NCBI GenBank assembly: GCA_018402445.1
Contig: JAGYIT010000007.1
Location: forward strand, 558,001-622,000
Direction: 5' to 3'
Length of the DNA: 64,000 nt
Origin: Akkermansiaceae bacterium
GTDB lineage: Bacteria > Verrucomicrobiota > Verrucomicrobiia > Verrucomicrobiales > Akkermansiaceae
Below the pieces are notes generated by a model. That model saw nothing but the letters and a program-made list of their open reading frames with translations, was not told where the DNA came from and made no database searches. The position numbers and the translations under genes are program-made. Below, one piece after another: positions 18,587 to 45,973 of this stretch (position 1 is its first letter; each line of letters starts with the position of its first letter).

Positions 18587-20761
<2,175 letters not shown>

Positions 20762-45438: not shown

Positions 45439-45882
45439 CTGGCGGACAGAGAGGGATTGCCTGCGGCTGTGCTAGTTTGCGCTTTGCGGTAGGAATGTTT
45501 TGCTCGCGAAGCTCACCCCTGCGCTCGAACCCTGAAGATGCTTCGCAGGGGTTCTCATCCCTCTGATGGAGTTGGGTATTTGAGAGCTGGCGGACAGAGA
45601 GGGATTGCCTGCGGCTGTGCTAGTTTGCGCTTTGCGGTAAGAATGTTTTGCTCGCGAAGCTCACCCCTGCGCTCGAACCCTGAAGATGCTTCGCATGGGT
45701 TCTCATCCCTCTGATGGAGTTGGGTATTTGAGAGCTGGCGGACAGAGAGGGATTGCCTGCGGCTGTGCTAGTTTGCGCTTTGCGGTAGCAATGTTTTGCT
45801 CGCGAAGCTCACCCCTGCGCTCGAACCCTGAAGATGCTTCGCAGGGGTTCTCATCCCTCTGATGGAGTTGGGTATTTGAGAG
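45439..45882 (-). repeat. Three 148-bp tandem repeats in the 3' trailer of tRNA-Ser
   Basis: Units start at 45439, 45587 and 45735, exactly 148 bp apart, and differ at only a few positions (near 45492, 45640, 45695 and 45788). Each begins with ctggcggacagagagggatt, which is identical to 45883-45902, the last 20 nt of the tRNA-Ser gene read on this strand. The tRNA end therefore forms a partial fourth copy, 3.13 units in all. Being downstream of the tRNA in its own direction, the units would lie in the precursor trailer. Each unit can fold: acccctgcg pairs with cgcaggggt, and atccctctg can pair with the tRNA-like cagagaggga end. Confidence 0.95.
45472..45558 (-). other. Possible 28-codon ORF, present in each of the three repeat units
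   Basis: On the minus strand each unit holds an ATG-initiated ORF of 28 codons: here 45558 to 45472, then 45706 to 45620 and 45854 to 45768. It begins [20 protein letters not shown] and ends LPQSAN. Between units, one change is synonymous (CTA/TTA) and two alter a residue (Pro/His and Phe/Leu). A GAGGG sequence abuts the ATG, too close for a good ribosome-binding site. Translation is speculative. Confidence 0.2.
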
Positions 45883-45883
45883 C

Positions 45884-45973
45884 TGGCGGACAGAGAGGGA
45901 TTCGAACCCTCGGTAACATTGCTGCTACACACGCTTTCCAAGCGTGCTCATTCGACCACTCTGACATCTGTCC
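45884..45973 (-). tRNA. tRNA-Ser (anticodon GGA)
   Basis: The reverse complement folds as a class II tRNA: acceptor GGACAGA/TCTGTCC, discriminator G, and encoded CCA. The anticodon arm is CACGC-TTGGAAA-GCGTG with GGA at positions 34-36, there is a long variable arm as in serine tRNAs, and the T arm is GAGGG-TTCGAAT-CCCTC. It reads UCC and UCU codons. The 3' 20 nt are repeated in the array that follows it. Confidence 0.97.

Follow-up and report, generated by a model that had tools for sequence, protein, structure and literature searches.

A tandem hairpin repeat behind tRNA-Ser(GGA) in Verrucomicrobiota, built like the rtT repeat of Escherichia coli and one of a class found behind many tRNAs

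The rtT repeat of the Escherichia coli tyrT locus, which follows the gene for tRNA-Tyr in units spaced at 178 bp, has so far been treated as a curiosity of a single locus. The corresponding RNA family, RtT (RF00391), has been reported to show covariation as a structured RNA with tandem GA (PMC7657543, PMC8250186), and rtT-like sequences were also found inside BIMEs upstream of several enterobacterial genes (PMC2965389). Further systems that invite comparison are the REP palindromes, the foot of which bears GTAG or CGTC tags (PMC3733652), the integrative elements of tRNA 3' ends (attL/attR), and the quasi-palindromic products of template switching, a process that creates and mends stems and arms blockwise (PMC8794818, PMC7202029).

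The array described here lies in a 64-kb stretch of an Akkermansiaceae genome ("the window", 64,000 nt in total). TRF identified a tandem array at 45439–45902 (period 148, 3.1 copies, 98% matches, 0 indels), and ARAGORN placed the adjacent tRNA-Ser(GGA) on the minus strand, so that the array, from 45883 down to 45439, lies downstream in the tRNA's own sense (Table 1). This agrees with a first-pass annotation of the sequence, which had proposed the exact 148-bp period, unit starts at 45439, 45587 and 45735, the downstream position, and the presence of a copy of the tRNA-Ser 3' end at the beginning of each unit. The 20 nt common to the units (CTGGCGGACAGAGAGGGATT) are indeed the reverse complement of AATCCCTCTCTGTCCGCCA (the end of the T loop, the 3' strands of the T stem and acceptor, and CCA) plus one base. 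The incomplete "0.13" unit of the first-pass annotation is the tRNA's own end, of which the last 18 nt (ATCCCTCTCTGTCCGCCA) recur as identical copies beginning 130, 278 and 426 nt past the CCA. Every unit also contains an inverted copy of the tRNA end (CAGAGGGATGAGAACCC, e.g. 45844–45861), absent from the first-pass annotation. The three units differ by substitutions at unit positions 54, 55 and 110 only, and hence are not identical assembly copies. The tRNA is the only one in the window, with no cloverleaf detected inside a unit by ARAGORN or RF00005. The units carry no integrase or other gene, there is no ORF of at least 100 aa within the array, and one reverse-strand ORF ends within the tRNA gene. 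Our scan detected no intrinsic terminator in the spacer between the CCA and the inverted arm.

Table 1. Features of the tRNA-Ser(GGA) locus, in window coordinates
Feature	Position	Strand	Evidence
tRNA-Ser(GGA), host gene; last 18 nt (45884–45901) = D1	45884–45973	-	ARAGORN; RF00005, 56.6 bits
Array, three 148-bp units downstream of the tRNA	45439–45883	-	TRF; R1 model, 122–126 bits per unit (training sequence included)
Unit 1, tRNA-proximal	45735–45882	-	TRF; folds better than shuffles, DNA z -2.69, RNA z -2.19
Unit 2	45587–45734	-	TRF, unit comparison
Unit 3, distal	45439–45586	-	TRF, unit comparison
Spacer from tRNA CCA to inverted arm, 22 nt	45862–45883	-	Sequence; spacer and terminator scans
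Inverted arm I, unit 1: CAGAGGGAT (pairs with D) + GAGAACCCC (P2 5' strand)	45844–45861	-	Sequence; arm-host match above chance across loci
Inverted arm I, unit 2	45696–45713	-	Sequence
Inverted arm I, unit 3	45548–45565	-	Sequence
GGGTTCGA, T-arm-like P2 3' strand, unit 1	45821–45828	-	Sequence; A1 consensus pairing
Hairpin core, unit 1; common to other tRNA loci and non-tRNA hairpins of the genus	45754–45820	-	A1, R1 hits, core comparison
D copy of the tRNA 3' end (18 nt including CCA), end of unit 1	45736–45753	-	Match to tRNA end
D copy, end of unit 2	45588–45605	-	Match to tRNA end
D copy, end of unit 3	45440–45457	-	Match to tRNA end

A gene for a trypsin-like peptidase (PF13365; 44252–45427, plus strand) is convergent on the array and ends 11 bp short of it; its readthrough would therefore cross both the array and the tRNA in antisense. 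The opposite strand of the array could also be read as a tRNA-primer-binding site (TGG + 16 nt). Elsewhere in the window, a TPP riboswitch (RF00059, 58.5 bits) is present at 18614–18727 on the plus strand.

Read in the sense of the tRNA, the element consists of D1 (the tRNA 3' end), a spacer, I (an inverted copy of the T-arm and acceptor strand, GGATGAGAACC), GGTTCGA, a hairpin core, and D2 (a direct copy with the CCA end). One strand of the window unit reads: 22-nt spacer, CAGAGGGAT GAGAACCCC (I), loop, GGGTTCGA, a core of small hairpins, and CAATCCCTCTCTGTCCGCCA (D2). Covariance folding of the unit, suggested at first pass, gave a consensus fold from an alignment of 13 elements (A1), which comprises P1 (I paired with D2), P2 (GAACC..GGTTC with a GA and GA frame) and several small hairpins; two-sided changes were found, within the genus, in 8 of its 26 pairs. 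The covariance model R1 was built from the same 13 elements. Where a plain inverted T-arm has TCG, I has the triplet GAG in 37 of the 42 readable elements of the genus. An element found with the RtT model and missed by our sequence pattern (L062) has tandem units in which I inverts the T-arm perfectly and keeps TCG (GGGATTCGAACCCAC), and at another locus (L221) the spacer and I, taken together, make up one arm of a single long inverted repeat whose other arm is the tRNA end. A GAUGAG-stem-CGA segment resembles the hammerhead ribozyme, which we rejected, as the conserved U4 and GAAA are missing and there is no Rfam match.

The window array is built like rtT, a likeness already pointed out at first pass. 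The E. coli tyrT locus has the same order D1-I-GGTTCGA-core-D2, its tandem units likewise close with a copy of the tRNA 3' end with CCA (here 18 nt, identical), and both systems have the inverted arm GGATGAGAAC(C), GGTTCGA, AATCC, the tandem-GA frame, C(GNA)G triloops and a variable number of units. The motif succession GGATGAGAACC..AGGTTCGA..AATCC..CCACCA is common to the 178-bp units of E. coli and the 148-bp units described here, and the GGATGAGAACC arm, the GGTTCGA strand and the GA/GA frame are found in the window unit by sequence, Rfam alignment and A1. RF00391 aligns with each window unit over its full length (model positions 1–130 of 130), but with scores of 20.3, 18.6 and 18.5 bits against a gathering threshold of 45, so that the array is not a member of RF00391 by the Rfam cut-off; relatives score up to 31.8 bits (G033) and, at best, 36.9 bits (G041). 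The two systems differ in their hosts, tRNA-Tyr at tyrT as opposed to tRNA-Ser(GGA) in the window and many tRNAs elsewhere, and in the core, which is not alignable with that of E. coli. Since the ends, P2 and the GA frame are common to both but the cores are not alignable, common descent of rtT and the Verrucomicrobiota elements appears likely from their sequences, short of proof.

The resemblance to the other systems is partial. Like REP and BIME sequences, the element is a small dispersed palindromic DNA, but its arms are copies of the host tRNA rather than a fixed REP, and neither GTAG nor CGTC is present at the foot of P1 in the window or in the A1 consensus. As in integrative elements of tRNA 3' ends, the distal border carries a direct copy of this end, but the element consists of gene-less 148-bp units with an inverted arm and a core common to tRNAs with different att sequences. 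As in quasi-palindromes produced by template switching, inverted-repeat arms would be re-copied from each other in blocks; the conserved core and the single fixed niche, the ends of tRNAs, set the element apart.

The first-pass annotation regarded the array as an independent locus. Our searches do not support this, since the array belongs to a class that is spread over the phylum and sits at many tRNAs. A DNA search of 59 relatives, an analysis that the annotation had proposed, revealed the unit in 11 genomes, with most matches 28–80 nt past the CCA of tRNA-Ser (GGA, GCT, TGA, CGA), tRNA-Pro (GGG, CGG) or tRNA-Lys; tandem relatives include 186 bp x 3 in G033 and 189 bp x 2 in G018. The R1 model yielded 86 matches in 30 of 62 genomes of the genus, and, when those cut by contig edges are left out, 57 of 78 have a same-strand tRNA upstream, mostly 36–68 nt away. 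Six of the matches are in the window's own genome: the three units, one element each at Pro-GGG and Ser-GCT, and, away from tRNAs, one weak copy behind a gene. Presence is patchy among tRNA-Ser(GGA) loci of the genus and among sister species. The pattern GATGAGAACC-N4..34-GGTTCGA occurs at 37 places in 18 of 289 genomes of the phylum, and the reversed control pattern at none. A looser pattern matches 51 of 384 genomes of the class, some by chance; its matches within 130 nt of a tRNA cover 19 anticodon types and 12 amino acids, with Leu in addition at 178 nt. The host tRNAs seen are those for Ser, Pro, Lys, Glu, Gln, His, Thr, Leu, Gly, Met, Cys, Ala (on a viral contig, L096) and Tyr, the last in other Verrucomicrobiota (L078, L087). 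The same kind of element is present behind tRNAs of at least 12 amino acids in this phylum, with its ends re-matched to the host tRNA, and the array at tRNA-Ser(GGA) is real, not ordinary, and not unique. Our element search covered the Verrucomicrobiota and E. coli; among open-access papers we found no literature on such elements behind many tRNAs.

Carriage by phages was considered and rejected: 74 pattern matches on viral contigs are about what is expected by chance, with an element behind a tRNA only at L096 (tRNA-Ala) and L146 (tRNA-Ser). An exact-match scan of contigs from Bacteroidota and other phyla returned 33 stretches, of which only those from Verrucomicrobia adjoin tRNAs, while the rest resemble chance or coding matches. 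Several tRNA-Ser spacers (L003, L006, L022, L024, L026, L217, L223, L231) have a common hairpin, TCACCCCAGCCCGG..CCGGGTTGGGGTGATGGCG, the TGGCG of which also pairs with the CGCCA of the tRNA.

Across many tRNA families, I as well as D2 agrees with the tRNA that it accompanies, and the core is common to different tRNAs of one genome. Of positions 4–9 of I, 65.6% pair with its own tRNA, versus 38.7 +/- 2.6% after permutation (maximum of 20,000: 48.9%). All six AGTCC tRNAs are followed by I = GGAC, versus 6 of 55 AATCC tRNAs (p = 1.7e-5); D2 is still AATCC at the AGTCC loci, hence I tracks the tRNA itself and not D2. D2 is identical to its own tRNA end in at least 16 of 18 positions at 38 of 55 loci, including those where I lags (L023, L223). 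Near-equal cores were found within one genome at Leu and Gln (G527), at Pro-GGG and Pro-CGG (G306), and at Ser-TGA and Ser-GCT (G205), and across families the similarity of cores is no higher for the same isotype than for different isotypes (0.55 and 0.56). Related cores also occur in hairpins unconnected with tRNAs, as GGACCGCTCGGA^core^AAGACGGTCCCTGCC within MITE-like repeats of G641, a genome that also has copies devoid of the core, and as GGCGGATCGGA^core^TCCGCC at L271, next to an empty GGCGGATCGGAGTCCGCC; such matches are mostly weak (E 1e-7 to 1e-2).

The MITE-like repeats (G641, L318, L320, L321, L323, L324, L325) have long inverted ends (AAGGCAGGGACCG..CGGTCCCTGCCTT), and their right arm has an RtT-like core inserted in some copies and none in others. 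A subfamily behind protein genes, represented by L294 (in the window's genome, G000:C3:37251-37382), L297 and L299, has the fixed ends CGGCAACGCG...GCATGGACGAAGTCAATCTTCGGTCGCC and the right half of the core in common with the element.

RNA hairpins are more often capped by GNRA or UNCG tetraloops. In the core hairpins, loops of three bases predominate (83 versus 13.9 expected), and these two tetraloop types are rare (GNRA 4, UNCG 2). C(GNA)G triloops reach 9.6/kb in the cores, about 70 times the 0.14/kb of the rest of the window, and are divided 38 to 1 between the tRNA-sense and the opposite strand, with a sense bias in E. coli too; GNA loops with a C-G closure form extraordinarily stable DNA mini-hairpins (PMC4686876). 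Deviations from the I x D1 helix at positions 4–8 are G-T in 15 and A-C in 16 cases, a near-equality that provides no RNA-specific wobble signal. The folding z-scores do not separate RNA from DNA, nor does comparison of the strands: the mean z is about -1.8 as DNA and as RNA, and sense and antisense differ little (p = 0.19 for RNA, 0.013 for DNA). Taken together, the C(GNA)G bias and the paucity of GNRA and UNCG favour a folded tRNA-sense DNA strand while leaving room for RNA, and the folded form is probably this single strand of DNA, exposed in replication and stabilised by C(GNA)G.

Our preferred reading, held with about as much confidence as doubt, is that of an rtT-type, tRNA-anchored hairpin repeat, the arms of which are re-copied by template switching while the number of units changes by slippage. 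I would arise when a hairpin-primed template switch copies the tRNA end, and two such switches in succession would leave the order D1-I-D2. Slipped mispairing of one 18-nt D copy with another could account for D2 and for the number of units and would keep D2 equal to D1; it agrees with the occurrence of tandem arrays, the variation in unit number, the patchiness of the element at tRNA-Ser(GGA) and the lag of I behind D2 (L023, L223). The matching of the arms would then be produced by DNA events, rather than by selection on base-paired RNA alone. The perfect, unmodified inverted T-arm of L062, which resembles a fresh inverted copy, speaks for template switching; the variation from one to three units here, and from 1 to 14 places (median 3) for the rtT motif per E. 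coli genome, speaks for slippage. Against such a reading, conservation of the GAG triplet and the P2/GA motif extends from Verrucomicrobiota as far as E. coli, a sign that a specific structure is under selection. Published covariation supports rtT as a structured RNA with tandem GA (PMC7657543, PMC8250186), and 8 of the 26 pairs have compensatory changes within the genus. The common core is unexplained by a mutational process alone, and its spread among tRNAs would require a further step, recombination or mobility; triloops, moreover, occur in RNA too.

It is possible, though we lean against it, that the element is a functional RNA, i.e. that transcripts run on from the tRNA through the units and are cleaved at every CCA, the units acting as small RNAs, as terminators of the Rho type or as decoys for the enzymes of tRNA ends, in line with proposals made for rtT. 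The P1 helix, with its CCA tail free, resembles a tRNA minihelix, the structure is conserved with compensatory pairs, and the unpaired positions are A-rich on the tRNA-sense strand. The annotation of E. coli lists rtT as an sRNA that is processed from tyrT, a link to the stringent response has been drawn for it (PMC2965389), and in Thioalkalivibrio the level of RtT sRNA is raised at 10 C (PMC8092127). By a simple, loose scan 41 of 55 spacers, including that of the window, are devoid of an intrinsic terminator, but in the other 14 a terminator precedes the element. The RNA reading is also at odds with the lack of a G-U excess, the prevalence of triloops, the patchy occurrence at tRNA-Ser(GGA) loci of the same genus, and the behaviour of position 0, where I agrees with the tRNA instead of with D2, its pairing partner. 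On the preferred reading as a DNA repeat, a use to the cell (termination behind the tRNA, small RNA, tRNA-end decoy) is possible as a secondary feature, given the absence of an intrinsic terminator from the window spacer.

Because related cores also sit in REP- and MITE-like hairpins that have empty copies close by, mobility must be taken seriously as a rival, if quite an unlikely one: the core of ~70–85 nt would be a non-autonomous mobile DNA that enters hairpin loops or 3' arms (T-arm copies of tRNAs, REP-like palindromes, MITE ends) and spreads between tRNAs. The clustering of cores by genome rather than by tRNA and the rtT-like sequences of enterobacterial BIMEs (PMC2965389) are consistent with this, but we found no enzyme and identified neither fixed ends nor a target duplication, the non-tRNA matches are mostly weak, simple insertion does not yield D1-I-D2 at tRNAs, and gene conversion between loci could equally spread the cores. 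We also consider unlikely the broadest version of our own proposal, according to which a class of single-stranded DNA hairpins extending from Verrucomicrobiota to E. coli anchors behind almost any tRNA and rewrites both ends to match the host, and, with the same core in unrelated REP- and MITE-like palindromes, represents an undescribed hairpin-parasitic mobile DNA.

At two same-genus tRNA-Ser(GGA) loci without the element (L222:1507-3033 and L241), an ORF of the tyrosine-recombinase type (PF00589, E 4e-7 in L222) begins directly behind the tRNA, which indicates that this tRNA end is an integration site. The suggestion made at first pass that the array marks a past integration is borne out to this extent in relatives, but the units themselves are without integrase, and an inverted arm and a lineage-specific core are not what duplication of an att site leaves. 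That the array is an ordinary tandem duplication, an assembly artefact or an integration scar of no wider meaning is highly improbable, for although the 18-nt direct repeats favour duplication and an integrase-bearing element uses this tRNA in relatives, three substitutions separate the units on a 1.1-Mb contig, and elements of the same build are found behind many tRNAs in numerous genomes, the reversed control pattern having 0 matches.

What is new is the wider class and its host-tracking ends: the tyrT repeat of E. coli becomes one case of a class found at many tRNAs. Two properties of this class are invisible from E. coli alone, namely that the arms vary with the identity of the host tRNA and that the core is common to the tRNAs within a genome, and together they make function and origin testable by comparison. 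They also carry a warning, as covariation of arms beside tRNAs may reflect the copying of DNA and not selection on RNA.
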